Part shown: in pieces, positions 32,201 through 53,878 of the stretch
How the letters are laid out: the number at the start of each line of letters is the position of its first letter
How positions within the stretch are numbered: position 1 is the first letter of the stretch
Origin: Antedon mediterranea
Lineage: Eukaryota; Echinodermata; Crinoidea; Comatulida; Antedonidae
DNA: 64,000 nt
Reading direction: 5' to 3'
Assembly: GCF_964355755.1 (NCBI RefSeq)
Contig: NC_092675.1
Coordinates: forward strand, 6,854,312-6,918,311
Position numbers and translations under genes: made by a program
Notes under the pieces: model-generated
Database searches by the model: none
Told to the model about the DNA's origin: nothing
What the model saw: the letters and a program-made list of their open reading frames with translations, nothing else

Positions 32201-34894
32201 AAGATGAGTGGGCCACAGGATTAAAGAACATTAGTTTCGACAGCTTACCATGTGAACGAGTCCTTGGAATGCTTTGGAATATTGAGCAAGACAAGTTCCA
32301 ATACGATATTCAAGTTGCTGTTAAACCTATGACACGTCGCGGAGTGCTAAGTATACTCAACTATGTGTACGATCCACTTGGTTATGCAGGACCCTATGTA
32401 CTGCGAGAAAAGATGATATTTCAGCAACTATGCCGCTGCAAATACCACTGGGATGATCCCATACCAACTGAGAGTGCGGATCAGTGGAATCAATGGCTCA
32501 TTGACCTTCCTACTATAATGGATCTGAAGATACCACGTTGTTTTAAGCCCATTGGGCTTCGCATCAAATCCAGCCAACTACATCATTTTGTCGACGCATT
32601 CGAAGCTGGATACGGGGCAGTACCGTATCTTAGAATGATAGATTCCTACGATAAAAGCCATTGTAGTATTTTGATGTCCAAATCGAGACTTGCACCTTTG
32701 AAGACCACAACCATCCCAAGGTTAGAGTTGACCGCAGCCGTCGAAGCAATCAAGTTAGACAAGTTGTTGCTGCGTGAGCTAGAAATTCCGCTGTTGGAAT
32801 CCACCTTTTGGTCGGACAGCATGATCGTTTTATGGTATATTCAAAATGATGAGCGTCGCTTCCAGACTTATGTAGCAAACCGTGTTTCGGTAATCAGGGA
32901 ACATAGTTTTCCGCACCAATGGCGATACATTGACACAAAGAGTAACCCTGGAGATGACGCATCCCGAGGTTTGACTGCAAGCAAGCTGGTTAATAACCGC
33001 AGATGGGTTAGCGGACCATCATTCCTGTGGAAAAATGAAGAAAGATGGCCAACTCAACCACCCTTTAAATGCACAGAACTTGAAGCAAGGGCGGAAATTA
33101 AAAAATCGTCAAAAATCTACACAGTTGTGACAAATAATAACGCTACTGTCGACCAACTCTTAAAACGCTACTCTTCCTGGTACCGGCTAAAGCGAGCTGT
33201 GGCATGGATTATGCGCTTCAAAACCTTTATGTTGAAACCTGCATGCCTAATTACTAGGAAACTAACGGTAAACGAGCTTAAGAAAGCAGAAGAATCCATC
33301 ATCCGGTATATTCAAACAAATAGCCTGAAGCCTGAGCAGATTAATTCGCTTAAAAGGTTGAATCCTATCCTGACAGAAGACGGTCTGTGGCGTGTGGGAG
33401 GTAGATTAGAAAAGGCAAATGTATCATACCAAACCAAGCATCAAGTGTTGCTACCAGCAAATCACCATGTTACTAAGTTAATTGTCGAACATCACCACTT
33501 GAGAACGGGTCACGCTGGAGCTGAACGCACGTTGGCTGAAACCAGACTAAAGTATTGGATTGTTCGAGGTCGCCCCAAAGGTATCTTGTCCAAATGTATA
33601 ACATGCAGGAAGTTGAGAGCAAGAACAGAAACACAAATGATGGGAAATCTTCCTGAAGCCCGGGTTAAATCAAATGAAACGCCGTTCAATAGAGTAGGTA
33701 TTGACTACTTTGGACCGTTTATAATAAAAAGAGCCCGTAGCGAATTGAAAAGATACGGATGTATCTTCACTTGCCTCGCCACTCGAGCCATTCACTTAGA
33801 GGTTTCACACACTTTGGACACCGACTCGTTCATTAATGCCTTACAACGCTTTATTGCACGACGGGGCGAGCCAGCCGAAATTCGCTCAGATAACGGCACG
33901 AACTTGGTAGGTGCTCAACTGCAATTAAAGCAAGCACTTAAAGGATGGAACCAACATAAGATAGGTGACTTCTTGCAACAAAAGGAAATCGAGTGGATAT
34001 TTAATACTCCTACTGCGTCACATATGGGTGGAGCCTGGGAGAGGCAAATTCGTACGGTGCGTTCCGTGCTGCGTGGCGTATTGGGTCAGCAGAAACTGGA
34101 TGATGAAGGATTATCAACACTGATGTGCATAGTAGAAAGCATAGTGAACAGTCGTCCCATAACTAAACTTTCTAGTGATCCAGATGATCCCTCGCCCATT
34201 ACACCTAACCACCTATTGCTTATGAGTGCTGGACCATCATTACCTCCTGGCATGTTCGTTAACCAAGACTCGTTGGCGTCAAATTCAGTATATGGCGGAA
34301 TCTTTTGGAAACGATGGTTAAGTGAATATCTTCCTGCCCTACAACAGCGCCAGAAATGGTTAAAACCAAGAAGAAATCTACGGCAAGGGGACATGGTTCT
34401 AATGAAAGCAGAGAACACCTCGTTACCAATGGCCTTTAGGATTGATCACCATCAAGCCATGATCTACTGTAGATATAAATGTGTTATGTATTACTAAATC
34501 AAGAAAACGAGCAGCCGCTCGTCCTTGGTCCACTCTCTTGCGTTGCGTCTACGTTCTTGCGTTGTGTCTTTAGTGGGAACCAGGCTTAGAGAATGTTTTT
34601 GTTTTGTTTTTTAAACTTGTTCTCGACAGTTTATGGTGGCATGGGCTAATTACCGACTAATGTGCGAGAATGTTAACATGTTGCAACACAGTATATATGA
34701 CCTAAAACTGTATTCCTTTTGCAACGTTGGAACACTTTGAATGATGGGCACTTACTCAAATGATTACACCAACAATAATAATGATAATCAACAAAACTTA
34801 CTACTCCGTACGGCCTTCTAATAGCGTCTCCTCCAACATTGGCGTATAAAAGTGCCACAGCAAACAGCAGTATGTATGATACCATTTTGAACAT
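26225..34894 (-). CDS. Secreted MAM-domain protein, minus strand, incomplete model
   Basis: Exons on the minus strand: 34,802-34,894 (signal peptide, MFKMVSYILLFAVALLYA); 27,191-27,238; 26,662-27,041; 26,225-26,291. Exons 3 and 4 join cleanly (phases 1-0-1) into a whole MAM domain: CNFELNDCGFDQ at the start, GDGWVEVNV in the core and ITIDDMVW at the end. The exon 3 span equals exons 3 plus 4 of the plus-strand MAM/CBM14 gene, while the final exon keeps the same phases, so the two genes are paralogues that differ by one intron. The 3'-terminal exon is not identified. Exon 1 ends in phase 0, but exon 2 is open only if entered in phase 1. Either a small exon is missed, or an internal AG at about 27,206 is used, or the gene is damaged. 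Intron 1 holds a BEL element in antisense orientation. The product is presumably extracellular; partners are unknown. Confidence 0.65.
28037..28184. mobile_element. TTAA-flanked MITE, family 1, clean copy
   Basis: A 148-bp near-palindrome flanked by TTAA at 28,033-28,036 and 28,185-28,188. The ends are GCTTGGTTCCCACTAG / CTAGTGGGAACCACGC. It is the best-preserved copy in the window and defines the family. It lies in intron 1 of the minus-strand MAM gene. Confidence 0.9.
28264..28425. mobile_element. MITE, family 1, copy next to the BEL insertion
   Basis: Ends CTTGGTTCCCACTAGAG / TTTAGTGGGAACCAGGC. The right half (from 28,346) belongs to the 241-bp segment that is repeated at 34,508-34,748. 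Confidence 0.85.
28346..28586. repeat. 241-bp flank of the BEL element, first copy
   Basis: This segment, made of half a family 1 MITE plus unique DNA, recurs at 34,508-34,748 with only a few differences. The match stops exactly where the BEL 5' LTR begins, so the second copy shows the empty insertion site. Confidence 0.9.
28587..28970 (+). repeat. BEL 5' LTR
   Basis: A 384-bp segment bounded by TGTTA...TAACA, the usual TG/CA inverted ends. The left edge is fixed by comparison with the empty site at 34,748. It contains AATAAA near 28,908. The right edge is set from the terminal inverted pentamer and is less certain, because no 3' LTR is available for comparison. Confidence 0.75.
29006..31056 (+). 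pseudogene. BEL gag (and remnant of protease region), disrupted
   Basis: The frame opening at the ATG 29,006 runs 120 codons and ends at 29,368. The coding sense continues in another frame from about 29,350, which points to a one-base loss there. The second part (to 30,732) has a long charged coiled coil (RAKARAEKAALEAE region), then a DUF1759-like gag domain (about 29,998-30,260, FDGNPLHYWFF). It ends in two zinc-knuckle-like motifs, CVYC...C and, after an in-frame stop at 30,730, CVNCFKPGHIEKEC. From about 30,900 the retropepsin domain expected in BEL is missing: no DSG/DTG motif is present, and the text jumps to its C-terminal end. Two more stops (31,054 and 31,060) separate it from pol. 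No functional gag can be made. Confidence 0.85.
31144..34497 (+). CDS. pol: BEL pol: reverse transcriptase, RNase H and integrase (open frame, 1,117 codons)
   Basis: The frame is the same as that of gag but opens after the last stop. Order: an N-terminal segment typical of BEL before the RT (LLCPQEVRKGKPGEPYG); the RT, with FNPKKPDKCRIVFD and the catalytic FYVDDC near 32,055; an A17-type region and RNase H with acidic residues in VDAFEAGYGA, LELTAAVEA, FWSDS and GDDAS; then integrase with an HHCC finger (about 33,490-33,610) and the DDE residues in GIDYFGP, RSDNGTN and GGAWERQ. A DUF5641-like tail begins but is cut at 34,458. The last 13 codons come from unrelated filler DNA. Transcription would depend on the 5' LTR. 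The long open frame suggests a fairly recent insertion. Confidence 0.92.
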   Translation: MPELLCPQEVRKGKPGEPYGVWIALGWAINGPINKDVNQPRSSHHVQLKATYEQSGSCWKLNTSNPSAETTLSINDHRVLHIWEDSISLKDGHYSMNIPFKHRPPNLPDNRQMVDRRLYLLGIRLTRDPVLKKKYVTEIHKLLADRHAELVPEEDLCRADGCEWYLPHHPVFNPKKPDKCRIVFDCAARANGTSLNDQVHQGPDLTNKLIGVLLRFRQEAVAFTADIQGMFHQVVVNPADRDALRFLWLKNDDPYNVPLEYRMTVHLFGGVWSPSCANYAVHRTVEDNASEYRNAARQTIKRNFYVDDCLKSVASVDEAIYLVHEVKKLLQCGGFHLNKWMSNSREVIYSLPQDEWATGLKNISFDSLPCERVLGMLWNIEQDKFQYDIQVAVKPMTRRGVLSILNYVYDPLGYAGPYVLREKMIFQQLCRCKYHWDDPIPTESADQWNQWLIDLPTIMDLKIPRCFKPIGLRIKSSQLHHFVDAFEAGYGAVPYLRMIDSYDKSHCSILMSKSRLAPLKTTTIPRLELTAAVEAIKLDKLLLRELEIPLLESTFWSDSMIVLWYIQNDERRFQTYVANRVSVIREHSFPHQWRYIDTKSNPGDDASRGLTASKLVNNRRWVSGPSFLWKNEERWPTQPPFKCTELEARAEIKKSSKIYTVVTNNNATVDQLLKRYSSWYRLKRAVAWIMRFKTFMLKPACLITRKLTVNELKKAEESIIRYIQTNSLKPEQINSLKRLNPILTEDGLWRVGGRLEKANVSYQTKHQVLLPANHHVTKLIVEHHHLRTGHAGAERTLAETRLKYWIVRGRPKGILSKCITCRKLRARTETQMMGNLPEARVKSNETPFNRVGIDYFGPFIIKRARSELKRYGCIFTCLATRAIHLEVSHTLDTDSFINALQRFIARRGEPAEIRSDNGTNLVGAQLQLKQALKGWNQHKIGDFLQQKEIEWIFNTPTASHMGGAWERQIRTVRSVLRGVLGQQKLDDEGLSTLMCIVESIVNSRPITKLSSDPDDPSPITPNHLLLMSAGPSLPPGMFVNQDSLASNSVYGGIFWKRWLSEYLPALQQRQKWLKPRRNLRQGDMVLMKAENTSLPMAFRIDHHQAMIYCRYKCVMYY
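34459..34508. repeat. 50-bp filler segment copied from 35,480-35,529
   Basis: These 50 bases match 35,480-35,529 with one mismatch. They join the truncated pol to the second copy of the 241-bp flank. Short homology (ATGATC) is visible at the left join. Confidence 0.85.
34508..34748. repeat. 241-bp flank of the BEL element, second copy (empty site)
   Basis: This is the counterpart of 28,346-28,586. After 34,748 it continues without the LTR, so it represents the uninterrupted target site. It carries half of a family 1 MITE at its left end. Confidence 0.9.
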
Positions 34895-36239: not shown

Positions 36240-37572
36240 TTAGGTTGGCGAAATGACATATGTTTACCAGTCTTATAGCAAGATTTCTCCACTTCCATAA
36301 TAACAGAGGTACCATCTTCGTAATGATACCCTGTACAGGATACTATTCCCAGACAAGCGTTTGCACAGTGAAGCAGGCCGGCTACGACTTCGAAACTCCT
36401 TTAATCCTGATCACCGAAGACAGGCATCGTCACCATTTACCAATTTAAAGGTTTTGGATTTAGGAAAGGCTGAAATAGTATGATAGTTATTTGCATGCGT
36501 ATACATGGTATGAGTGCCATAGTTATTAGATTATAATACACATGTTGTAATCAACTGGTATTTCTTTTGGAAGGAAAACAAACTGTCATAAGACAAAATG
36601 AAAGATCTACAAAACAGAAGAGACCAGCAAACTGTAGATGGTTCCACTGATCGAAAGAGGCAGTTGGAAAAGGATAGATAAAGTAAGGAGGTAAAGAGAC
36701 AGAACAACCTTCGGATAAGAGAGAGGAGAGAGAAACGAAGATACCAGGGAAGTATTATGAGACAATTGCTGTAAGAGTTGACAAGAAGAGAGGAAGATCA
36801 AAACGAAGATACTAGGGAGGTATTATTAGACATTGGTTTACGAGTCGACACGAAGAGAGGAAGATCAAAACGAAGACACCAGTGAGGTATTATGAGAGAC
36901 AATGACTGTAAGAGTTGCCATGAAGAGAGGAAGATCAAGTGGAAAAGGAAGAATGGAGAGAACAGGGAAGTATGTAAGAAGGTAAAAACTGAAAACGGTT
37001 GGAGAGACAGAAAACTTACGAATGCAACGAAAGCCGTCAGAATGAATCTTGTACAGTGGCGGATTACAACCACAGTAATATCCAGTACCGTTACGAATAC
37101 AAAACCACGCTTATCATCACAACGGTTTAATGTCGAGTTAGCACAAATGTCGAAATCTAATGAAGAAAAATTATCTGTTGCAGGGAAATTTATTTACAAA
37201 GGTGATGTGAATTAGGCGAATATGGAAAATAGAATCTTAAAAGGCCAGTTCAACTCAAGTTTTTACCCGTGTAAATGTACCAATTATTGTATAATTTTTG
37301 TCGACAGGTCACCAGCTTATCTGGGTAACTACCTGCAACGCACCCACAACAGATGACAATAAAATAGATGACAAAAAAACCCCCCAACGATGACGATTGC
37401 GGTGATGATCATGTTATGATAAAAAATAATTAAAAGTAACCTAAACATGTGAAACCATCTGAATCCAGTGTATAGCCTTGTACACATGCGCACGTGTAGT
37501 CACCACCATTTGACATACATTGTCCATACGTTTCATCACAGTTATTGAGGGTGGAATTTGAACAAGCATGGA
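36240..37572 (-). pseudogene. F-lectin/EGF/PAN gene copy C: 5'-less pseudogene with exons 7-9 only
   Basis: Minus-strand remnants match the last three exons of the neighbouring full genes. Exon 7 (37,441-37,572, EGF3) is intact at 132 bp. Exon 8 (37,020-37,156, EGF4) is 137 bp instead of 138; the lost base, in the region coding GFC, shifts the frame. Exon 9 (36,240-36,469, PAN) has an in-frame TGA after DDACLR, a 4-bp insertion and a deletion. Signal peptide, lectin and EGF1-2 exons are absent. The splice sites of exons 7 and 8 are still present. The intron between exons 8 and 9 keeps the 70-bp minisatellite of its relatives. It is the dead end member of the tandem family. Confidence 0.9.
36650..36935. 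repeat. 70-bp minisatellite, copy C intron
   Basis: About four diverged units of a 70-bp repeat with core GAGGAAGATCAAAACGAAGA and GGTATTATGA. It is in the same intron position (between exons 8 and 9) as the arrays at 38,990-39,745 and 49,125-49,325. Confidence 0.85.
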
Positions 37573-38514
37573 CTAAAAATAAACATAATGAATTCACTTA
37601 TTTGTTCTAATACAAAAACAAAAAACTTCATACAAGATATGATGATTTGAGACTCGTGTGAGATTTAATGCCGTTTAAATCATTACAGAATGAGCATTGC
37701 TGGCGTACACGTTCAAACTGTATTATATGCAAACATCGCAAACATTTTTGTAATCTTCGTGCAAAGCATGAACAAAAGTGTTCACTACAGAGATAGATAA
37801 TATCATTATAAAATAAATATATATACTTCCAGACATAGAAGAAACTCTACAAACTTGAAACTCTTGAAAAATAACATCAGTCTAATAAATCGAGCATTCA
37901 AGAACATCTAGTAACAATAACATTTGCAACGAAAAGTACAAAATAGGTGGCGCTGTTGTATTTCAAAAGCAATACACGAAAAAAGTACTATTAAACGATC
38001 GTACTATTCCACACCATGTGACCCACAATCGTCCAATCAAATGACAAGAATTTATTTAGGTGTTTATAATATCATGTTATTATGATATTATTATATATCT
38101 GTTTAATTATTAACATTCCCTTGTTAATTCAACGTTCCCAACACTTATACCAAGTATTCAATCTCAACATAACATTTGTGTATTATATTTTGATATTTAA
38201 TGTGCTCTTGCTTCTATCATACAATTACGCAACTGCAATGGTCATAATATTTACAATTAGTTATAATTCATTTAGATATTTAAAGTAGAACATTATACTG
38301 ATTAATGACAGTAGATCATAACTGGATAGCTTTTTGACAACCTGACCTAACATTGAGTTGAAGGTCGTAGTGCACCTAATCTACTAAGGACATCGAGTGA
38401 GGAAACATACCATATCCGGACGTACTATGGCATGTGCACAAATAAATTAACACGACGAAACTAGGTTATCCCATATCGAAAGCTCCTTATTCTAGCCCAT
38501 GCCAGCTGATATGT
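37573..38514. other. Region between pseudogene copy C and lectin gene A
   Basis: No gene. 37,660-37,720 resembles 45,408-45,465, and 37,760-37,900 resembles 52,905-53,000 (GTGCAAAGCATGAACAAAAGTG, AGAAGAAACTCTACAAACTTG). 38,040-38,510 is the 3' flank shared with the other copies. These patches mark the borders of the duplicated units. Confidence 0.6.
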
Positions 38515-41500
38515 TTAGGTTGGCGGAACGACATATGTTTTACCAGTCTTATAGCAATATTCCTCAACTGCGGAACTGTCTTTCATAATAACACAGGTAC
38601 CACCTGCGTAATGATACCCTGTACAGGATGCTATTCCCAGACAAGCGTTTGCACAGTAAAGCAGGCTACGACTTCGAAACTCCTTTAATCCTCCCCTAAG
38701 ACAGGCATCGTCACCATTAACCAATTTAAAGGTTTTGGATTGAGGAACGGCTAAATATAAAAACAGTATGATGGTTGTTTTAACATATGCATGTTGTAAA
38801 TGACATAGTATAATACACATGCTGTAATCAACTGGTATTAGGTTTAGAAGAAAACAAACTGCTATACATTTTCTTTGCGACAAAAAGAAAGATCTACAAA
38901 ACAGAAGAAGTTTAAAAGGGATGTTAATTTGGAAAAAAATGGATAAAGGAAGAAGGTAAAGAGACAACCTTCGGATAAAAGAGAGGGAAAAACGAAGACA
39001 CCAGGAAGGTATTATGAGAGACAATCGCTGTAAGAGTTTCCACGAAGAGAGGAAGATCAAAACGAAGATACCAGGAAGGCATTATGAGAGACAATGGCTG
39101 TACGAGTTGACAAGAAGGGAGGAAGATCAAAACGAAGATACTAGGGAGGTATTATGACGAACAATGGCTGTAAGAGTTGACAAGAAGGGAGGAAGATCAA
39201 AACAAAGATACTAGGGAGGTATTATGACGAACAATGGCTGTAAGAGTTGACAAGAAGGGAGGAAGATCAAAACGAAGAAACCATGGAGGGATTATGAGAG
39301 ACAATGGCTGTACGAGTTGTCAAGAAGAGAGGAAGATCAAAACGAAGATACTAGGGAGGTATTATGACGAACAATGGCTGTAAGAGTTGACAAGAAGGGA
39401 GGAAGATCAAAACTAAGATACCACAGCGGTATTATAACCGTAAGTAAGAGTTGCCATGAAGAGAGGAAAATCAAAACGAGGATACCAGGAAGTATTATGA
39501 GACAATGGCTGTAAGAGTTGTCAAGAAGAGAGGAAGATCAAAACTAAGATACCAGGGAGGTATTATGAGACAATGGTTGTAAGAGTTGCCATGAAGAGCG
39601 GAAGATCAAATCGAAGACACCAGTGAGGTATTATGACGAACAATGGCTGTAAGAGTTGCAAAGAAGAGAGGAAGATCAAAACGAAGATATCAGGGAGGTA
39701 TTATGACGAACAATGGCATGTAAGAGTTGCCAAAAAGAGAGGATCAAGATCAAGTGGAAAAGGAAGAATGGAGAGAACAGGGAAGTATGTAAGAAGGTAA
39801 AAACTGAAAACAGTAAGAGAGACAAAAAAACTTACGAATGCAACGAAAGCCGTCAGAATTAATCTTGTACAGTGGCGGATTACAACCACAGTAATATCCA
39901 GTACCGTTACGGACACAAAATCCTCTCTCATCATCACAGCGGTTTAATGTGGAGTTAGCACAAATGTCGAAATCTAATGAAAAAAAAATTATCTGTAGCA
40001 GGGAAATTTATTTACAAGGGTGATCAAGACATGGCGAATATGGAAGATGGCTAAATGTAAAAAAAAAAATTCAAAATAACAACCTAAACATGTGAAACCA
40101 TCTGAATCCAGTGTATAGCATTGTACACATGCGCATGTGTAGTCACCACCATTTGACATACATTGTCCATACGTTTCATCACAGTTGTTGAGGGTAGAAT
40201 TTGAACAAGCATCGACTAAAAATAAAGATAATGTCGGTTACCATCAATATTTTGAGTAGACCTACGCGTCAAATGTGTTTTCATAATGCTACTTAGAGAA
40301 ATTGAATTACGGATGTAAAAAAATCAAGCAGTTCCAAAATTTGTTCTGAATTGTCATCTTAAATTTAAGAAAAGTTAATAAGCAAATATATTTGTTAACG
40401 GCGTAATCAACTTGACTTTAGTAAAACAAAAATGCATTTGTTCACTCGAGCAACGCAAGTTAGTCCAATCACAAACGACATTTCGGATGATCCATCGCTT
40501 CGTGGTTGGTCAAATTACTTGCGTTGCGCCTACTTGCCTCCGTTGCGTTTTAGTTAGAAGTAAACTTCTATCCTGCTCTAGGCCTTAACTTACTTAAGCA
40601 GGTGTGGTTATCGTTTTGCAAAATGTAGTTGGTATCACATCCGCATTTATAACTGGTGTCCGTGGGAGTGCAGTGTCCATGTTGCTGATCACAGTTATTC
40701 AGAGCCGAATCGAAGCATGGATCAACTTTATAACATCAGAAAAAAAGGTAAGATGAATTAAAAAGAATCACAAACGTTAAGGCAGCAATGATGTAGTAAT
40801 AGAAACGAATATAGTACTGACTCTTTTTATTCAGAATAATACTTGTATATAATTATAGCATACATTTTCTATCTATTTGTTCACTCAAAATTGTAAATTT
40901 AAGCAACCAAAAGTAAAAAAAAAAATGTATCCGGAACCCCAATTAAGGCCAGAAAAAAGAAGAATCAAACGAAATCTACCAAAAATGGTATGATTTGGTG
41001 CCTTCAAACTGATCATGGAATGGTACGGTCCAATTGGTGGTGATGTTAGTAACGTTTTAGTGAGTTATGGTTGTAATGCTAATAGTGGTACGTCAATACA
41101 ATGTTTGGCGGTGGCTTTAGTACTGTATCAATAGTACCGGTACGGATGTCATACCTGTACAAGACTCTCCATCAATTTTTAAAGTGTAACCAGAGTTACA
41201 CCCGCAGTAGTAAATAGTGCCATTGTTGTTGCAGACACCATTTGTGACGTCACATGTATTCCCAAGTGCACAAATATCAGGTTCTGAAAGAAACAATATA
41301 CTGTAATGATAATTAATGTTTAAAAATAGTATTAATTAACAGTTATATACCAAGATTAATTGATATTTATTATTTATTTACACATCAGCTTCTGCTATCT
41401 GCTGCGTATATCTATCTGTAAAGGTCTGATTGTACTAGGACTATAATGAACAACGATAAATAGATATACATTTTTATTACAGAAAACATAAGAAATTAGA

Positions 41501-43071
41501 AAAGATTTCAACCTAAAACTATTAGGATAACCATTGAGACTGTATTCAATGAAAATAATCTTTGGTATACACACCTGAGCCAAAAACTTGGAATTCACAT
41601 AGCTGGACAGGTGAATCAGTATTACTGACCCTCACATATCTACCACTAACGGCCGAGCATGATCTTTCAATTTTTGGACCGTTGTTAATATCATCACTTA
41701 AGGTAAATGGTATACCGCACTGAACGCATAAAGAGTTTGAACCAATGCAGATATTAACGACGGCTGATACTAGCTGTTCTCTTAATATACCATCTATGAC
41801 AAATTGAGAAATCCAAACTATTCTTTAATTTTTATTTTTATTTTATTTTTTTTTTTGTAGGGAACCATAACCATGTGCAAATGAAAGATTTTAAAGAAAT
41901 GAATTTAATCCGCGGCATAAGGGCGAGAGATTCAGTCACATGGACACCGGAAGTTGGCACCACCATCATCGCTACATGTTAAGATAACGAGTAGGTATGT
42001 AGAGGCAGAGCGCAAACTACCAAGAGATTTATAAACAGAAATTTTCTAATGAAACGTAATTGGAATATGAAGACGCATTTTGTATACAAATTAACAGATA
42101 TATTTACCTGACCTATTGTAAACTGTTATAGTTGTGACGGAGTACAATCTCCCCAAATCCACCATCCACCAATTAAAACTATTACTCTCTGTAAACAGAA
42201 ATTACTAATACATGAACACTCCATCCACATTTATTGATACCTATATACATATTTTTATATTTTCACTTCGAGATTTAGTTGCAAGGTGTTCGGTATAAAG
42301 AGAGACATCGCTTTCTCTTACCTGTTAAGGAGCATGAACCGCGTGACAAATCGGGATCAAAATTACCGTCAATTGCTCGACTTGCGACATTACCGTCCAC
42401 TGTTGTGCTCTGTGATGCTACCAGCCCGTCTAATATCTGCTTGTCTAATTAGAAAATTAAGTTTGGCTTAACAAATAAATGGTGTCGGTACCGGTTATCA
42501 ATATGTTTATATAATATGGTTAATATTTCATGCATATAATTCATCACTCACAATATACTTCAACCAAGCCGCTCGGCCACGCACAAACACATAAACATTG
42601 TTTTGGACAGCTTTTTATCAATTTAAATTTAATGTAAGTAAATTTCTACACTTCCATGTATCAAATTAAACCAGCTAGGACAAAATGGTTCGGCTATTTT
42701 ACAATAAGAATTTGTTTAGTATAATAATATCGTCCCCACGATATTCATATAATTAACTAAACAACCTTAATGTACGTTTGTATGGCCAGCTTGAGGTTAA
42801 GACAGTGGAACCATTATTCCGTAGCCATAACATTGGCTAGAGTTTTAGGCTTACTCCCTTTATGGTTCTTTTGGTAGTCCTGGGATATCTTTGTTATATG
42901 GACATGTAGACCTATACCTACATACAATTTAAACGAGTAAAACATGTCTAAACAATCGTGGTGTTTCAACTGAGATAGGGTCTACACAGAGAAATACGAT
43001 GTCTTACCTTGAGCCGCTATCCCACAATTGTAGAATATTATAACAACGAAAATACGGAACATTTTAAACAT
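38515..43071 (-). CDS. Secreted F-type lectin / 4 x EGF / PAN protein, gene A
   Basis: Nine exons (minus strand): 43,008-43,071; 42,322-42,444; 42,108-42,188; 41,575-41,793; 41,155-41,283; 40,594-40,725; 40,084-40,215; 39,836-39,973; 38,515-38,750. All introns are GT-AG and phase 1, giving 417 residues. Exon 1 encodes a signal peptide (MFKMFRIFVVIIFYNCG). Exons 2-4 form an F-type lectin-like (fucolectin/FTP) domain: VASRAIDGNFD, GSC, NWWMVDLGRLYSV, SCSAVSGRYVRV and LCEFQVFG. Exons 5-8 are one EGF-like module each. Exon 9 is a PAN/apple-like domain (CANACLGIASCTGYHY). The lectin domain lacks the canonical fucose-binding residues. EGF3 has Cys in place of a conserved Gly (ACVQCYT). The product is expected to be extracellular and possibly a recognition or adhesion protein, by inference. 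Gene B at 48,673-52,469 is its close paralogue. Confidence 0.88.
38990..39745. repeat. 70-bp minisatellite, gene A intron 8, about 11 units
   Basis: Successive 70-bp units share AAGAAGGGAGGAAGATCAAA, TAGGGAGGTATTATGA and CAATGGCTGTAAGAGTTG. The array fills most of the intron between the PAN and EGF4 exons and is the longest of three related arrays. Confidence 0.92.
40441..40565. mobile_element. MITE family 1 relic in intron 6 of gene A
   Basis: Blocks GCAACGCAAGTTAGTCCAATC and GGTTGGTCAAATTACTTGCG are opposed, as in family 1. The matching relic is in the same intron of gene B (50,080-50,215), so the insertion is older than the A/B duplication. Confidence 0.7.
42784..42885 (+). mobile_element. 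SINE fragment in intron 1 of gene A
   Basis: GGTTAAGACAGTGGAACC, GTAGCCATAACATTGGC and TGGTAGTCC match the head of the tRNA-derived SINE seen on the minus strand at 15,118-15,350. Confidence 0.6.
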
Positions 43072-43630
43072 TATTATGAACAGATAGTATATATACGTCT
43101 TAACTCACTGAAGATTAATTAGAAGATGCATCAACTTTAGGTAGCAGATGACACCCTAGAAGAATATAAATAAATATACAAGCCCCCCACAAAGTTTACA
43201 AATTGATTTTGATGTGATTTCCATATTACATAATTTGTATACAATTGGCAGACCAACACTGTTTACATTTGACTTGCAAATGCAGTATATTTTCATTTAT
43301 GTAAATTGTTGACGTGTGGGGGAAAAAACAAATATCAATATGGAAAACAAATACCACTTTACTTGGCACTTTAAGAATAATACAGAAGTTTTAGACTCTT
43401 AATTTAAATCTAAATTCAAATAAACATTTATTTCTATTGTTTTATTTAGATAAACAATTTAAAGAACAGGAAATTTAGATTGAATATGTTCATAGACGAA
43501 AATAAATTATTGGAGTTTGTTGATATCGTGCATAGTTAAGAGTTATAAGGTTAGAAAAAAGGATAAGAATGGGTAGTAAGAAGTACCTGAAATCATCCGA
43601 ACAGCTTTCTTTTGAAGGACGTAATTTTAT
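43072..43630. other. Upstream region of gene A
   Basis: No gene. 43,072-43,320 is homologous to 52,470-52,690 upstream of gene B, including the string TTGACTTGCAAATGCAGTAT in both, so it probably contains the shared promoter. The rest is AT-rich and unremarkable. Confidence 0.6.
43086..43096 (-). promoter_or_regulatory. TATA-like element upstream of gene A
   Basis: TATATATA lies 17-24 bases upstream of the ATG at 43,071. The flank to about 43,320 is conserved with that of gene B (52,470-52,690). This is close for a TATA box serving the first ATG, so transcription might start after it and use the Met at codon 4, or the match may be chance. Confidence 0.35.
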
Positions 43631-45320
43631 TTAGATTTGAAGAATACTAATGTTTACCCATACAAGATTAGCTGATAAATGTGAGAAAAGGGAACAGTAG
43701 ATATTGCGTATAATATGAGCGGGTAAAAAGGAAGAAAGACGATCATAAAATATGCCAATATGCGTTGATATTTTTAATTCAATTTTTGTTATATGATTTT
43801 TGAAATTTAGCTCTTGGTCTTTTAAAACACTTAGGAATTTGGTTTGCTTAACATTAGGAATTATTTGAACACCTATCAGAATTTGATGAGAATCTTCGGT
43901 CAGTTTTTTGTGACTAAATCCAAACATCATAAAGTTGAATTTTTTTTAGGCTTATTGAAAGTTTATTCACATTAATGTAATCATTGATATTAATTAATTC
44001 TTACATAAAAGTTTGAAATGGACTCAACGTTAACATATTTGTATAAAATAAAGTCGTATAATCTGATAAAGATAACAAGTAAGGATATGCGTTTGGTTAA
44101 TCATTGATATTTACCAAGGCCATATACATGACTGCAGTCGCTCAAGTAGTGTTTACCGACCAAACCGACCGACTGGCCGACATAGTGAGATGTAGATTCG
44201 CGTTGCACGCGACTAAAATAAAGAGGGTTAGGACCATAGGGGGGACACCACATGCGATAGGCTTGACACCACATGCGATAGGCTTAAGATCATAGGAATG
44301 ATTGTTACATAAGTACACTGAAATCTATTTGGTTAGTAACTGTTTAAAACTTTAAGAGCAACACCACGGATACCATCATTTGAAAGTTTTGAAATTTAAA
44401 AATACGACCATCAATCGATCAAACACTGTTTGTTGCTTAGCTTGGGCAAACAGATTACGTTTTAGGGTAAGATCCTCTTGAATAGTATCGCAGAGCCTTT
44501 TAATTTCATTCGTACTGTTATAAAGTGTCTTCGACTTCTATATGAAGTAAATAATTATTGGAGAGCTAATACTGCCGGTCGTCGTCTTAGCGCAAAGGTA
44601 CGTAACTAATAAACGGCTATGTCCGTCTTCCTTCCCTAACCGTCCTGTTTCGTAAAGTCCTTAATGGCCTAGGTCGACGTGCTTTCGTCCTGTTCGGTGA
44701 GAACGGTCAATGTCGTGTACGTTGATGTCTACTAGAAGCTTGTTGCTTGCTAATTTGCTAATTCATCAGCAGTGTTTTCTTTGTCAGATTCTGGTATTTC
44801 AAAAAGTCTGATGTTGCTACTGCGTGAATATGGCTCTAGATCATCAACTGAGTGAGTTGTTTATATTATGCATTTCATTTTTGATCATCTACAATGGAGC
44901 TGATGAACACAAATTAATTTGTTAAATCCGCTATTTTGATTTCACAAATAAACGTGTACGGTGTTAAAAGTACAGCATTTATGCAGACAGCAACGTGGAT
45001 AACTTTCTATAGTTATACAGATATCACCTAGGGACAGTAGCAGAATCGGTTGCTCTATAATTGACTCAAGATTTTTTTTAACGGTTTTGTTAAGTTAATA
45101 CATTTTTCATTTGAAAATGTATCCAAAATTTGTTTACCAGTAAGTTCAGCAATTGATGGTCCATTAAAAGCTTTTTTGATGTTATGAGTGAAAGCATATC
45201 TTGGCTGTTCATGAATTCCGACAAAGTCGAGCGAGCTTGTTGGGACTGCCGTGTAAACGGGCCAGTTGAGGCGGGAGTTTCCTTCGAGTTAGATGCCATG
45301 AGGCTAGCATTTACACACAA
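43631..45320 (-). mobile_element. Degenerate LINE: ORF1 (RRM) and reverse transcriptase fragment, unit 1
   Basis: On the minus strand 45,320-45,090 could be an ORF1 N-terminus. 44,870-44,440 contains, across several frames, LINE ORF1 RRM text: VDDLEPYSR, IRLFEIPESDKENT, HDIDRSHRTGRKH and EDLTLKRNLFAQAKQQ. After a gap with a nested palindromic element (44,123-44,220), 44,075-43,631 encodes the C-terminal part of a reverse transcriptase (TTLFYTN, FLSVLKDQELNFKNHI, FLPAHIIRNIYCSLF). Frameshifts and a large internal deletion make it inactive. Confidence 0.75.
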
Positions 45321-45571
45321 ACTATAATTGTTTTGTAGGCTAAATCACAGTTTAGTTTTGGTACTCAGTCTTTACACAAGATAGGATTATTTAAGACTAA
45401 TTTAAGATTTAATGCATTTTAAATCATTACAGAATGAGCATTTTTGGCGTACACGTTCAAATGGGGGACCAAATGATTTTTTTTAGTCCATCAGCTCCGT
45501 TGTAGATGATCAAAAATGAAATACATAATATAAATAACTCACTCAGTTGATTATCTAGAACCATATTCGTA
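44824..45571. repeat. Inverted repeat pair of about 82 bp, 580 bp apart
   Basis: The left arm 44,824-44,905 and right arm 45,489-45,571 are inverted copies (ATCATCAACTGAGTGAGTTG / AACTCACTCAGTTGATTATC, and the text up to GAGCTGATG). The structure is repeated in unit 2 at +2,407. Confidence 0.8.
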
Positions 45572-45659
45572 CACGAAGAAAGTACTTATTAAATAATCGT
45601 AATATTGCACGCCATGTGACCCACAATGACAGGAATGATATTTAGGTGTTATATAATAT

Positions 45660-45821
45660 ACAAATAATGAATGTTTATGAGTGCAATGGTACAAATAATG
45701 GCACGAGGTGAATGATGAAAGGTTATATCAACGAGGCAAAGCCGAGTTGATATAACCTTTCTTCATTCACCAAGTGCCATTATTTGTACCATTACACGAA
45801 TACAAAACATTCATTATTTGT
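45660..45821. mobile_element. Hairpin MITE (unit 1)
   Basis: A 162-bp nearly complete palindrome with ends ACAAATAATGAATGTTT / AAACATTCATTATTTGT and inner arms AAAGGTTATATCAAC / GTTGATATAACCTTT around a small loop. The copy in the second unit is 48,067-48,228. Confidence 0.85.
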
Positions 45822-46164
45822 TTATTTATTTATTATTTGTTCACTTATGTATCTGTTTAATTAACAATCACTTCTTAATTTTACGTCACAGTAATTTCCC
45901 AACACTTAGACAAATAGTTATTCAATCTCAACATAATATTGGTGTATTATATTTTTATATTAAATCTTGAATCTATCATACAATTTTATAATTACAATTA
46001 GTTTTAATTCATTTAGATATTTAAAGTAGAACATTATATTGATGACAGTAGATCATCATTGGATAGCTTTCTAATTGTTGACACCCTGAACTAACATTTT
46101 GGGTTGTAGGTCGTAGTGGACCTAATCTACTAAGGAAATCGATGGAGGAAACATACCATATCCG

Positions 46165-47727
46165 ATATGCGTTGATATTTTTAATTCAATTTTTGTTATA
46201 TGATTTTTGAAATTTAGCTCTTGGTCTTTTAAAACACTTAGGAATTTGGTTTGCTTAACATTAGGAATTATTTGAACACCTATCAGAATTTGATGAGAAT
46301 CTTCGGTCAGTTTTTTGTGACTAAATCCAAACATCATAAAGTTGAATTTTTTTTAGGCTTATTGAAAGTTTATTCACATTAATGTAATCATTGATATTAA
46401 TTAATTCTTACATAAAAGTTTGAAATGGACTCAACGTTAACATATTTGTATAAAATAAAGTAGTATAATCTGATAAAGATAACAAGTAAGGATATGCGTT
46501 TGGTTAATCATTGATATTTACCAAGGCCATATACATGACTGCAGTCGCTCAAGTAGTGTTTACCGACCAAACCGACCGACTGGCCGACATAGTGAGATGT
46601 AGATTCGCGTTGCACGCGACTAAAATAAAGAGGGTTAGGACCATAGGGGGGACACCACATGCGATAGGCTTGACACCACATGCGATAGGCTTAAGATCAT
46701 AGGAATGATTGTTACATAAGTACACTGAAATCTATTTGGTTAGTAACTGTTTAAAACTTTAAGAGCAACACCACGGATACCATCATTTGAAAGTTTTGAA
46801 ATTTAAAAATACGACCATCAATCGATCAAACACTGTTTGTTGCTTAGCTTGGGCAAACAGATTACGTTTTAGGGTAAGATCCTCTTGAATAGTATCGCAG
46901 AGCCTTTTAATTTCATTCGTACTGTTATAAAGTGTCTTCGACTTCTATATGAAGTAAATAATTATTGGAGAGCTAATACTGCCGGTCGTCGTCTTAGCGC
47001 AAAGGTACGTAACTAATAAACGGCTATGTCCGTCTTCCTTCCCTAACCGTCCTGTTTCGTAAAGTCCTTAATGGCCTAGGTCGACGTGCTTTCGTCCTGT
47101 TCGGTGAGAACGGTCAATGTCGTGTACGTTGATGTCTACTAGAAGCTTGTTGCTTGCTAATTTGCTAATTCATCAGCAGTGTTTTCTTTGTCAGATTCTG
47201 GTATTTCAAAAAGTCTGATGTTGCTACTGCGTGAATATGGCTCTAGATCATCAACTGAGTGAGTTGTTTATATTATGCATTTCATTTTTGATCATCTACA
47301 ATGGAGCTGATGAACACAAATTAATTTGTTAAATCCGCTATTTTGATTTCACAAATAAACGTGTACGGTGTTAAAAGTACAGCATTTATGCAGACAGCAA
47401 CGTGGATAACTTTCTATAGTTATACAGATATCACCTAGGGACAGTAGCAGAATCGGTTGCTCTATAATTGACTCAAGATTTTTTTTAACGGTTTTGTTAA
47501 GTTAATACATTTTTCATTTGAAAATGTATCCAAAATTTGTTTACCAGTAAGTTCAGCAATTGATGGTCCATTAAAAGCTTTTTTGATGTTATGAGTGAAA
47601 GCATATCTTGGCTGTTCATGAATTCCGACAAAGTCGAGCGAGCTTGTTGGGACTGCCGTGTAAACGGGCCAGTTGAGGCGGGAGTTTCCTTCGAGTTAGA
47701 TGCCATGAGGCTAGCATTTACACACAA
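46165..47727 (-). mobile_element. Degenerate LINE, second copy in duplication unit 2
   Basis: This repeats the unit 1 LINE, but the reverse transcriptase fragment is cut at the duplication junction (46,165), where its frame runs on into flanking DNA. ORF1 remnants lie at about 46,850-47,727. Confidence 0.75.
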
Positions 47728-48066
47728 ACTATAATTGTTTTGTAGGCTAAATCACAGTTTAGTTTTGGTACTCAGTCTTTACACAAGATAGGATTATTTA
47801 AGACTAATTTAAGATTTAATGCATTTTAAATCATTACAGAATGAGCATTTTTGGCGTACACGTTCAAATGGGGGACCAAATGATTTTTTTTAGTCCATCA
47901 GCTCCGTTGTAGATGATCAAAAATGAAATACATAATATAAATAACTCACTCAGTTGATGATCTAGAACCATATTCGTACACGAAGAAAGTACTTATTAAA
48001 TAATCGTAATATTGCACGCCATGTGACCCACAATGACAGGAATGATATTTAGGTGTTATATAATAT

Positions 48067-48228
48067 ACAAATAATGAATGTTTATGAGTGCAATGGTACA
48101 AATAATGGCACGAGGTGAATGATGAAAGGTTATATCAACGAGGCAAAGCCGAGTTGATATAACCTTTCTTCATTCACCAAGTGCCATTATTTGTACCATT
48201 ACACGAATACAAAACATTCATTATTTGT
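48067..48228. mobile_element. Hairpin MITE (unit 2)
   Basis: This is the duplicate of 45,660-45,821, with the same arms and loop. Confidence 0.85.
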
Positions 48229-48672
48229 TTATTTATTTATTATTTGTTCACTTATGTATCTGTTTAATTAACAATCACTTCTTAATTTTACGTCACAGTA
48301 ATTTCCCAACACTTAGACAAATAGTTATTCAATCTCAACATAATATTGGTGTATTATATTTTTATATTAAATCTTGAATCTATCATACAATTTTATAATT
48401 ACAATTAGTTTTAATTCATTTAGATATTTAAAGTAGAACATTATATTGATGACAGTAGATCATCATTGGATAGCTTTCTAATTGTTGACACCCTGAACTA
48501 ACATTTTGGGTTGTAGGTCGTAGTGGACCTAATCTACTAAGGAAATCGATGGAGGAAACATACCATATCCGAACGTCCTGGCATGCGCACAAATAACTAC
48601 ACCACTAATTCCCAGATCCTAGATTACTCCATATCAAAAGCTTCCTTTTCTAGCCCATGCTAACTGATATGT

Positions 48673-51600
48673 TTAAGTTGGCGGAACAATATATGTTTTA
48701 CCAGTCTTATAGCAATATTCCTCAACTTCGGAACTGTCTTCCATAATAACACAGGAACCACCTGCGTAATGATACCCTGTACAGGATGCTATTCCCAGAC
48801 AAGCGTTTGCACAGTAAAGCAGACTACGACTTCGAAACTCCTTTACTCCTCCCCTAAGACAGGCATCGTCACCATTGACCAACTTGAAGGTTTTGGATTG
48901 AGGAACGGCTGACGTAAATAAAAACAATATGATGGTTATGGCATAGTATAATACAAATGCTGTAGTCAACTGGTATTTGGTTTCGAAGAAAACAAACTGT
49001 TATAATTTTTCTTTGCGACAAAAGGAAAGATCTACAAAACCGAAGAAGTTTAAAAAGATATTGGGTTGGAAAAGGATGGATGAAGTAAGGAGGTAAAGGG
49101 ACAACCTTCGGATAAAAGAGAAGAAAAAAAACGAAGATACATGGAAGATATTATGAGAGACAATGGCTGTAAGAGTTGCCATGAAGGGAGGAAGATCAAA
49201 ACGAAGATACTAGGGAGGTATTATGACGAACAATGACTGTAAGAGTTGCCATGAAGAGAGGAAAATCAAAACGAAGATACTAGGGAGGCATTATGACGAA
49301 CAATGGTTGTAAGAGTTGAGATGTAGATCAAGGTCAAAACTATAGTAAGTGAAAAAGAAAGAATGGAGAGAACAGAGAAGTATGTAAGAAGTAAACAATT
49401 GAATTCAGTAGAAGAGACAGATAACTTACGAATGCAACGAAAGCCGTCAGAATGAATAGTGTACAGTGGAGGATTACAACCACAGTAGTATCCAGTACCG
49501 TTACGGACACAAAATCCTCGCTCATCATCACAACGGTTTAATGTCGAGTTAGCACAAATGTCAAAATCTGTTGAAGAAAATAATATGCAGCAGGTTAACT
49601 TATTTACAAGGTTGATCTGGACATGGCGAATATGGAAGATAGAATCCTAGAGTCCGTTCGTGTAATGTTTTTTTTAAGTTGGCTAAATGATAAAAAAATA
49701 ATTCAGATTAACAACCTAAACATGTGAAACCATCTGAATCCAGCGTATAGCCTTGTAAACATGCGCACGTGTAGTCACCACCATTTGACATACATTGTCC
49801 ATACGTGTCATCACAGTTATTGAGGGTGGAATTTGAACAAGCATTGACTAAAAATAAACATAATAAATTCACTCTTATTAGTTCTACTACAAAAACATAC
49901 GTGGAAGTTTAACGTACTAGAGTCATGCTAAAAATCATATTCGTCAGTTTTTGAGTACGCGTCAAATGTGTTTTCATGATGCTACTAAGAGAAATTGAAT
50001 TAAAATTTAGGCAGTTCCAAAATTGGTTATGAATTGTCATCTTAAATTTAAGAAAAGTTAATAAGCATCATGATAAATGCGTTCGTTCGTTTGCGCGCGC
50101 AACGCACGTTAGTTGACCAATCACAAGTGATAGTTCGGATGATCACTCACTTCGTGGTTGGTCAAATTACTTGCGTTGCGCCTACTTGCCTCCGTTGCGT
50201 TTTAGTTGGAAGTAAACTTCTATCCTGCTCTAGACCTTAACTTACTTAAGCAGGTGTGGTTATCGTTTTGCAAAATGTAGTTGGTATCACATCCGCATTT
50301 ATAACTGATGTCCGTGTCTGTAGGAGTGCAGTATCCATGTTGCTGATCACAGTTATTCAGAGCCGAATCGAAGCATAGATCAACTTTAAAATATCAGAAA
50401 AAAGGTAAGAATAATCACAAACGTCAAGGTTACCTCAGAAGCAATGATGTAGTAATAGAAACGAATGCTTATTCACATCATACGGTACATTTACTTATTT
50501 ATTGGTTCAATCAAAATATCAATTTAAGCAACCAAAAGTAAAAAAAACAATCTGGAACCGTCATTTTAGTCCAAAAAAGGAAAAATCAAACGGAATAATC
50601 CTACTGTATATAGGACTCTAAATGGAATTGGTGGTGATATTAGTAACGTTTTAGTGAGTTATGGTTGTAATGCTAATAGTGGTACATCAATACAATGTTT
50701 GGCGGTAGCTTTAGTACTGTATTGGTAGTACCGGTACGGATGTCATACCTGTACAAGACTCTCCATCAGTTTTAAGAGTGTAACCAGAGTTACACCCGCA
50801 GTAGTAATTAGTACCATTATTGTTGCATACACCATTTGTGACGTCACAAGTATTTCCAAGAGCACAAATATCAGGTTCTAAAAGAAAAAATATCCTGTAA
50901 TGATAACTAATTTTGTAATAAGGTATTACAGTCATATACCAAGGTTAACGTACAGTAATATAAATTATTATTTATACATCAGCTTCTGCTACGGATATCT
51001 AGCTGCAAATGCCTGCTTATACTAGGACTATAATGAACGACGATAAATAGATATACGTTTTCCTTACAGAAATCAAAATAAATTAAAAAGGTTTTCATAT
51101 TAGAACTAAAGGATATCCATTGATACTGTATTCAATCAAAATGATTTTTGGTATACACACCTGAGCCAAACACTTGTACTTCACATAGCTGGACAGGTGA
51201 ATCCGTATTAGTGACCCTCAAATACCTGCCACTGACTGCCGAGCATGACCTTTCAATCTTTGGATTTGCGTAAATATCATCATTTAAGCTAAAAGGTGTA
51301 CCGCATTGAATGCATGAAGAGTTGTTTGAACCAGTACAAATATTTACGACGGCTGATGCTAGCTGTTCTCTTGAACCATCTACGACAAATTGAGAAATTC
51401 GAAACTATTCTTTGTACTGAACAACTTTACAATACAGCATGATTATCGTCTGGAAACAAAAAGCCACAGCCATGTTAAATAATGGATAAACAAAAATAAA
51501 TGAATGGAAATTAAAACAAAGAGAAAAAATTGTATTTGAGCCGCGGCATAAAGATGAGATGGACATCAAAAGTTGGCTCCAGTTGAAAACACAATGTACC

Positions 51601-52469
51601 AAGAAAAGACTTGAAATGAAAACGAAGTTTGTATACAAATTAACATATATTTTTACCTGCCCTATTGTAAACTCTTATAGTTGTGACGGAGTACAATCTC
51701 CCCAAATCCACCATCCACCAATTAAAACTGTTACCCTCTGTGAACAGAAATTACTAATACATGAACACTCCATCCACATTTATTGATACTTATACACATA
51801 TTTTTATATTTTCCCTTTGATGTTTAGTTGCAAGGTGTTCAGTATAAAGAAAGACATCGCTTTCTCTTACCTGTTAACGAGCATGAACCGCGTGTCAAAT
51901 CGGTATCAAAATTACCGTCAATTGCTCGACTTGCGACATTACCGTCCACTGTTGTGCTCTGTGATGCTACCAGTCCGTCTAATATCTCCTCGTCTAATAA
52001 CAAAATAAAACAAATTTGGTTGAAAAGATTATTACTAAATGGTATCGGTACCAGATCCAATAGATATCTGTCTCCAATAGATATCTGTCTTATTACTATT
52101 TCATCTAAGCACCACTCACAATATATTTCAACTAAGCATTGAGCTACTAGGCATACATATACAAACGTTTAAGATTGTTGAGTTCGTCCTATGAAATGCA
52201 GGCTTTTTACCATGAGGAAGATAACACTAAAAGAAGGTTTATTAAAAAAATGTCCAAACAATATTGTCTGAGCTGGTTTGCTACATGGAAATGTCCTACC
52301 TACATAACATTTAAATAGATAAACAGCTGTTTCTGTCCAAACAATGTATGTGTGTTTCAACATGAAAAGGTCTACACGAACAAATATGAATTTGTAATGT
52401 CTTACCTTGAGACGCTACCCCACCACTGTAGAATAGTATAACAACGAAAATACTGAACATTTTAAACAT
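48673..52469 (-). CDS. Secreted F-type lectin / 4 x EGF / PAN protein, gene B
   Basis: Nine exons (minus strand): 52,406-52,469; 51,871-51,993; 51,657-51,737; 51,161-51,379; 50,749-50,877; 50,246-50,383; 49,716-49,847; 49,430-49,567; 48,673-48,908. All splice sites are GT-AG and all introns phase 1; the product has 419 residues. Signal peptide MFKMFSIFVVILFYSGG; F-type lectin-like domain (VASRAIDGNFD, GSC, NWWMVDLGRLYSV, RSCSAVSGRYLRV, LCEVQVFG); four EGF-like modules, one per exon (opening at CALGNTC, CFDSALNNC, CSNSTLNNC and CANSTLNRC); a PAN/apple-like C-terminus (CANACLGIASC...CVIMEDSS). EGF2 is two residues longer than in gene A. All EGF modules keep their cysteines. No transmembrane segment follows, so secretion is expected. 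The role is unknown; recognition or adhesion is inference from the domains. Confidence 0.9.
49125..49325. repeat. 70-bp minisatellite, gene B intron 8, about 3 units
   Basis: The same 70-bp unit as in gene A, with about three copies, between the PAN and EGF4 exons. Confidence 0.88.
50080..50215. mobile_element. MITE family 1 relic in intron 6 of gene B
   Basis: Blocks GCGCAACGCACGTTAGTTGAC, AATCACAAGTGATAGTTCGG and GGTCAAATTACTTGCGTTGCG. It occupies the same position as the relic in gene A. Confidence 0.75.
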
Positions 52470-53878
52470 TATTATTAACAGATAATATATACGTCTTAAG
52501 TCACTGAAGATTAATTAGAAGATGCATCAACTTTAGGTAAAAGGAGATGACACCCTAACCCACATGAAGTTTACAAATTGATTTCGAGGTGTTTTCCATA
52601 TTCCATATACAATTGGCAGACCAACGCTGTTTACATTTGACTTGCAAATGCAGTATATTTTCATTTATGTAAATTGTTGACGTGTGGGGGCTAACAATTA
52701 TATTGTATCGACATGAAAAACAACACAACAACTTACTTGGTACTTTAAGAATAATACACAAGTTTTAGACTCTTAATTTAAAAATATTAAGTTGTATAGT
52801 TGTATTGGTATTAACATTAACATGGTATCTTTATTCTCTACTTACTATTTGGTGTTGAACGGTTATTAAATGAAACTGTAAAACACCTTATAGTAATATG
52901 CGTGCAAAGCATGAACAAAAGTGCTTGATACAGAGATAAATAATATTATTATTATACATTAAATATACACACATAGAAGAAACTCTACAAACTTGTATTG
53001 ACTTTTTAAAATATATAAAAATCAGTTTAATTAATCAAACATTGAAGAACACACTTTAAACGGGAAAAGTGTTCTGTTAAACTATTTCAAGCATAAAAGA
53101 CCACATGTACATCATGATGTACATCATTGTAAATTGTCAACACACACTGTGCTACAGACAGTGTACCGTGTGTTAAAAGTACAGCATTTATAGCAGACAG
53201 CAACGTGTATAACTTTCTATAGTTTTACAGATAGCACCTGTGGACAGTAGCAGAATCGGGTGAAAAGACACTAAACTTTACTCTCAAACGAAGAAAATTA
53301 TGAAAAAAAAGAAGATCATTTTTACAAACATTTGTGTTAAGTTATATTTTAAGCAAAGAGAATGTAAAACCTACTCTCAAACGGAGGAAAGTGTTGAAAA
53401 AGGATTATTTTTACAAACATCCGTGTTAAGCTTTATCAAGCATAGAGAAACTAAACCTATAGGCCTACTCTCAAACGGAGAAAATTCTAAAAAACGGGAT
53501 AATTTTTACAAACATTTGTGTTAAGTTATTTTAAGCATGGAGAAACTAAATCTATTCTGTCAAACGGATAAAATTCTAAAAAAAGGATCATTTTTACAAA
53601 CATTTGTGTAGAGAGAAACTTAACCCTATACTTTCAATGGCGGTGATTTTACCAATAAGAATTGTCAGATAATAGAATATCTACTATATGAATAGTTTTT
53701 CTAGTGTTGTCGTTGCCAGGAACAACAGTCAAGGTTGAACAAAAATGCATTATATAATTATCATAACAATGTACAATAACTGACATTTATTCACCGGAGT
53801 AAACAGTCGAATGACACATTATAATTAATTTTTAACAAGTATATAACCGTGTTGGTATTTCTCTCCGGAAAAGTGTTA
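52470..53878. other. Region between lectin gene B and the plus-strand gene
   Basis: 52,470-52,690 is the upstream flank conserved with gene A. 53,170-53,260 is a detached fragment of the LINE-unit sequence at 44,970-45,050. 53,270-53,640 is a minisatellite. The rest, up to the start codon at 53,879, is AT-rich and holds the presumed promoter of the plus-strand gene, where no clear element stands out. Confidence 0.6.
53270..53640. repeat. Minisatellite of about 90 bp, four units
   Basis: Four diverged units each contain CTCTCAAACGGAG (or a variant), TTTTTACAAACATTTGTGT and GCATAGAGAAACTAAAC-like text. The last unit is shortened. Confidence 0.85.

Follow-up and report, generated by a model that had tools for sequence, protein, structure and literature searches.

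A crinoid tandem gene pair predicted to encode secreted proteins with an F-type-lectin-like domain, four EGF modules and a PAN-like end

Secreted bridging proteins such as MFG-E8/lactadherin and EDIL3 are built from EGF modules and discoidin-fold domains similar to those of the two genes considered here (A and B), but place the EGFs first, carry an F5/8-C instead of an F-type lectin domain and lack a PAN domain. F-type lectin domains themselves occur in mosaic proteins. In Nematostella they are combined with EGF and CCP (PMC5712786), and the sea urchin protein SpCRL is an echinoderm mosaic carrying such a domain, in which CCP, S/T/P and factor I-MAC domains take the place of the EGF and PAN parts of A and B (PMC5712786). 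The Nematostella mosaic shares with A and B the association of a lectin domain with EGF, and differs from them in its CCP and other domains, PAN being unmentioned in PMC5712786. The order displayed by A and B (lectin, four EGF, PAN) was not found described in the literature searched, which consisted of papers as distinct from protein databases. The preliminary description of this DNA, to which the order was unfamiliar from described proteins, is neither contradicted nor proven within that scope and has to be read beside the published F-type lectin, EGF and CCP combination. The modules are all of known kinds; it is their combination that seems to be new, although its absence from the literature is weakly supported.

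Both genes lie on the minus strand of the window, i.e. the whole 64-kb stretch of Antedon mediterranea DNA analyzed, and are composed of nine homologous exons each (Table 1): one for the signal peptide, three for the lectin domain, one for each of the four EGF modules and one for the PAN-like domain. All introns of gene A are in phase 1 and each of its exons 2-8 is a multiple of three; both properties extend to gene B, provided that exon 4 starts at 51379. The exons of the two genes are 84-95% identical and their introns 77-93% identical over aligned bases. The predicted proteins of 417 and 419 amino acids are both open with the downstream exon 4 acceptor, and their C-terminal ends are devoid of a hydrophobic tail. 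A domain search on both proteins recovered the F5/8-C-type/F-lectin fold and four EGF_CA stretches. The domain order, the lectin domain spread over three exons, the one-exon EGF modules and the uniform phase proposed previously were confirmed in both copies, and secretion is supported by a signal peptide recognized by eye (hydrophobic core and AAQ site). The claim of two complete genes stands with one correction, gene B being open only through the downstream exon 4 acceptor. Elsewhere in the window, a BEL/Pao-type retroelement with long open frames occupies 29320-34494 on the plus strand and a MAM domain exon (E 1.2e-10) is located at 26581-27054 on the minus strand. A tektin encoded by the same genome scores 290 bits against a sea urchin sperm tektin structure (8snb) and 156 bits against mammalian tektin-4, which makes an echinoderm most likely; a set of eleven chromosomes would be in keeping with a crinoid. 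Mitochondrial COX1 was not found.

Table 1. Coordinates of the two genes, the remnant copy and associated features (window positions, except for the last row)
Feature	Coordinates	Strand	Description
Gene A	43071-38515	-	9 exons
Gene A exon 1	43008..43071	-	start codon and signal peptide MFKMFRIFVVIIFYNCGIAAQ; judged by eye
Gene A exon 2	42322..42444	-	lectin part 1, with cation motif AIDGN and with GSCSLT at the position of the H of canonical lectins
Gene A exon 3	42108..42188	-	lectin part 2; WWMVDLG...YNRS
Gene A exon 4	41575..41793	-	lectin part 3, GRYVRV...LCEFQVFG; preferred downstream acceptor
Gene A exon 4, alternative start	41817	-	also open in A
Gene A exon 5	41155..41283	-	EGF1
Gene A exon 6	40594..40725	-	EGF2
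Gene A exon 7	40084..40215	-	EGF3; one extra Cys, CVQCYTL
Gene A exon 8	39836..39973	-	EGF4
Gene A exon 9	38515..38750	-	PAN-like domain and stop codon
Gene B	52469-48673	-	9 exons
Gene B exon 1	52406..52469	-	start codon and signal peptide
Gene B exon 2	51871..51993	-	lectin part 1
Gene B exon 3	51657..51737	-	lectin part 2
Gene B exon 4	51161..51379	-	lectin part 3; downstream acceptor GTAG|ATGG
Gene B exon 5	50749..50877	-	EGF1
Gene B exon 6	50246..50383	-	EGF2; exceeds exon 6 of A by 6 bases
Gene B exon 7	49716..49847	-	EGF3
Gene B exon 8	49430..49567	-	EGF4
Gene B exon 9	48673..48908	-	PAN-like domain and stop codon
Remnant copy	37572-36240	-	exons 7-9 only (EGF3, EGF4, PAN)
Remnant EGF3 exon	37441..37572	-	open; 96% identity to A
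Remnant EGF4 exon	37020..37156	-	1-base deletion (frameshift)
Remnant PAN-like exon	36240..36469	-	several indels, with frameshift, and a stop
Remnant 5' stretch	37721..37906		78% identical to gene B 5' flank (52864-53051); adjoins EGF3
Intron 8 minisatellites	36733-36938, 38989-39743, 49116-49318
Probable mosaic gene of F-lectin-like, C-type lectin and PAN domains, C3:7.95 Mb	L063 1000-4900		putative gene model

Comparison of A with B, from which the disputed start of exon 4 was excluded, gave a dS of 0.183 and a dN of 0.050, i.e. a dN/dS of 0.27, with values of 0.39, 0.13 and 0.23 for the lectin, EGF and PAN parts, respectively. Such low ratios at a dS of about 0.18, particularly in the EGFs, indicate that both copies evolved mostly as coding genes. 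On these substitution values, the pair is judged to be under purifying selection, not diversification, and to descend from one moderately old duplication. No trace of exons 1-6 was found in the remnant copy; as sequence resembling the 5' flank of gene B stands beside its EGF3 exon, these exons were apparently deleted. A search of the genome (354 Mb in eleven large sequences) brought to light no additional close copy of the EGF/PAN part. The copy number is a pair and a decayed fragment, not an expanding family: the tandem family of the preliminary description holds for the two genes and the pseudogene but has no other close member in the genome, and the expanding recognition system that it proposed is not supported, in view of a single moderately old duplication, a decayed copy and purifying selection. 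Intron 8 of all three copies contains a minisatellite made of 3 to 11 units of 67-70 bases. Between A and B, a 2.4 kb direct repeat (43744-46165 and 46152-48572) with 99.75% identity either arose very recently by tandem duplication or is an artefact of the assembly.

The EGF modules are clear, each phase-1 exon encoding a single six-cysteine module, but the full calcium-binding consensus is missing. By eye, the start motif D/N-x-D/N-E/Q-C is complete in none of them and the second motif C-x-D/N-x4-Y/F-x-C appears in EGF1 only, as CNNNGTIYYC. The seventh cysteine of EGF3 in gene A, replaced by glycine in B and in the remnant, is possibly unpaired.

The integrity of gene B depends on the choice of the exon 4 acceptor. 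With the upstream acceptor (41817 in A, 51404 in B), gene A is open, whereas exon 4 of gene B gains one base and the frame is lost after exon 3; gene B would then be a recent pseudogene and gene A the sole working copy. We consider this unlikely in view of the poor pyrimidine tracts of the upstream acceptors (4/20 and 8/20), compared to 13/20 in both genes for the downstream acceptors (41793 in A, 51379 in B) situated 24 and 25 bases further on, respectively. In addition, the lectin-family score of gene A drops from 45.1 bits in the short form to 41.7 bits in the long form, and the remaining exons of gene B are all intact and constrained. The exon 3/4 junction of gene B obtained with the downstream acceptor aligns without gaps to eel fucolectin (NRADGSREQL vs NRGDCCGERI). 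The pyrimidine-rich acceptor, the open frames, the lectin score and this junction lead us to prefer the downstream acceptor and to take both genes as intact. The nature of the last exon calls for similar weighing. Submitted alone, it scores 19.7 bits (E 7.7e-4) against PAN_1, below the cut-off of 21.4 bits, and PAN is not detected when the whole protein is scanned; the PAN part of the architecture claimed previously is thus sub-threshold. This score fits with the absence of the A and B last exons among the matches of a genome-wide PAN_1 search. The AlphaFold model of the exon is also poor (pLDDT 52) and a profile comparison with the PAN domains of the same genome performed no better than shuffled controls, as might be expected from an unrelated cysteine-containing tail. 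Such a tail is nevertheless given a low probability, since three of the four models matched by the exon are PAN models (PAN_1 and, more weakly, PAN_2 and PAN_4), its cysteines follow the CxxxC...C spacing around a predicted helix succeeded by strands, as in PAN, and its best PDB match, although not significant, is an apple-domain microneme antigen. The last exon is probably a PAN domain.

The same weighing applies to the lectin domain, whose fold is firm (E 1.6e-11 in A and 1e-12 in B) and whose best solved relatives are F-type lectins. MsaFBP32 (3cqo, E 6.1e-24), eel fucolectin (1k12, E 4.7e-14) and Sm-hPAF carry the same domain, with E values ranging from 6e-24 to 5e-14. The cation motif h2DGx, present as AIDGN in both copies, and the RxD element are shared with these lectins and F-type lectins function in immune recognition (PMC5712786), so that A and B could be envisaged as working fucose lectins acting as soluble, opsonin-like pathogen-recognition molecules. 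We regard this as improbable. In the published fucose motif, H X24 R X D X4 (R/K) (PMC5712786), A and B keep the R and D, but the H is replaced by L and the last R by Q. Unlike MsaFBP32, eel fucolectin and Sm-hPAF, A and B have thereby lost two of the three fucose contacts (H52 equivalent to L, R86 equivalent to Q) as well as the vicinal disulfide (CC to GS), and are joined to EGF and PAN modules. Nor does the lectin part, with its dN/dS of 0.39, show a surplus of amino-acid replacements. Several other lectin exons of the same genome retain RxDCC, and the loss consequently looks derived in A and B. Because the fucose motif is incomplete, the domain is best classed as F-type-lectin-like and not as a fucose lectin; the replaced contacts and the missing cysteine pair suggest that sugar binding may be absent. 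The term lectin used previously is therefore valid for the fold, not for the substituted fucose contacts.

Relatives of the lectin domain elsewhere in the genome are clustered without EGFs near them: in stretches of 8-9.5 kb around the F-lectin clusters of C2, C3, C5, C6 and C7, EGF was not found. EGF matches on C3 (9.68 Mb) and C4 were rejected, being ordinary multi-EGF genes. A single strand at C3:7.95 Mb bears, in succession, F-lectin-like exons, a domain of the C-type lectin family (E 1.4e-17) and PAN. This locus resembles A and B in having F-lectin-like exons upstream of PAN and differs from them in the C-type lectin domain standing in place of the EGFs; no solved relative was found for its F-lectin-like part. 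On C11, an F5/8-C exon lies upstream of PAN and no middle is seen. Although the C3 and C11 gene models are putative, they suggest that lectin-fold and PAN ends have repeatedly been joined with different middles. A second lectin-PAN pair is located upstream of the C3:7.95 Mb mosaic (L062), and a lectin-fold match at C7:25884650 falls inside an open frame of 4597 residues without stop.

Taken together, A and B are probably two functional tandem genes, accompanied by a decayed remnant, that encode a soluble secreted mosaic of about 418 amino acids (lectin fold, four EGF, PAN-like) with a putative bridging or adhesion role. This role is inferred from the signal peptide, the lack of a membrane anchor, the disulfide-rich modules and the lectin-fold and PAN ends; the mosaic reading is also supported by the adjoining lectin-fold and PAN domains of other loci. 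The lectin-fold domain would bind one partner by other means than the canonical fucose mechanism, the PAN end would bind a second one and the four EGFs would serve as a rod or spacer between the two ends. Much more tentatively, the genome might hold a series of secreted adaptors built on one plan, with an F-lectin/discoidin N-terminus, a PAN C-terminus and swappable middles (the four EGFs of A and B and the C-type lectin of C3, with no middle visible on C11), in which the lectin domain of A and B would have been retargeted from fucose. The module order of A and B, apparently not described before, widens the range of mosaic F-type lectins; the genes are otherwise the product of ordinary exon shuffling of phase-1 modules. 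As the pair has lost the canonical sugar motif and yet is under apparent purifying selection, it would offer a direct route to ask what lectin-fold domains bind without fucose.
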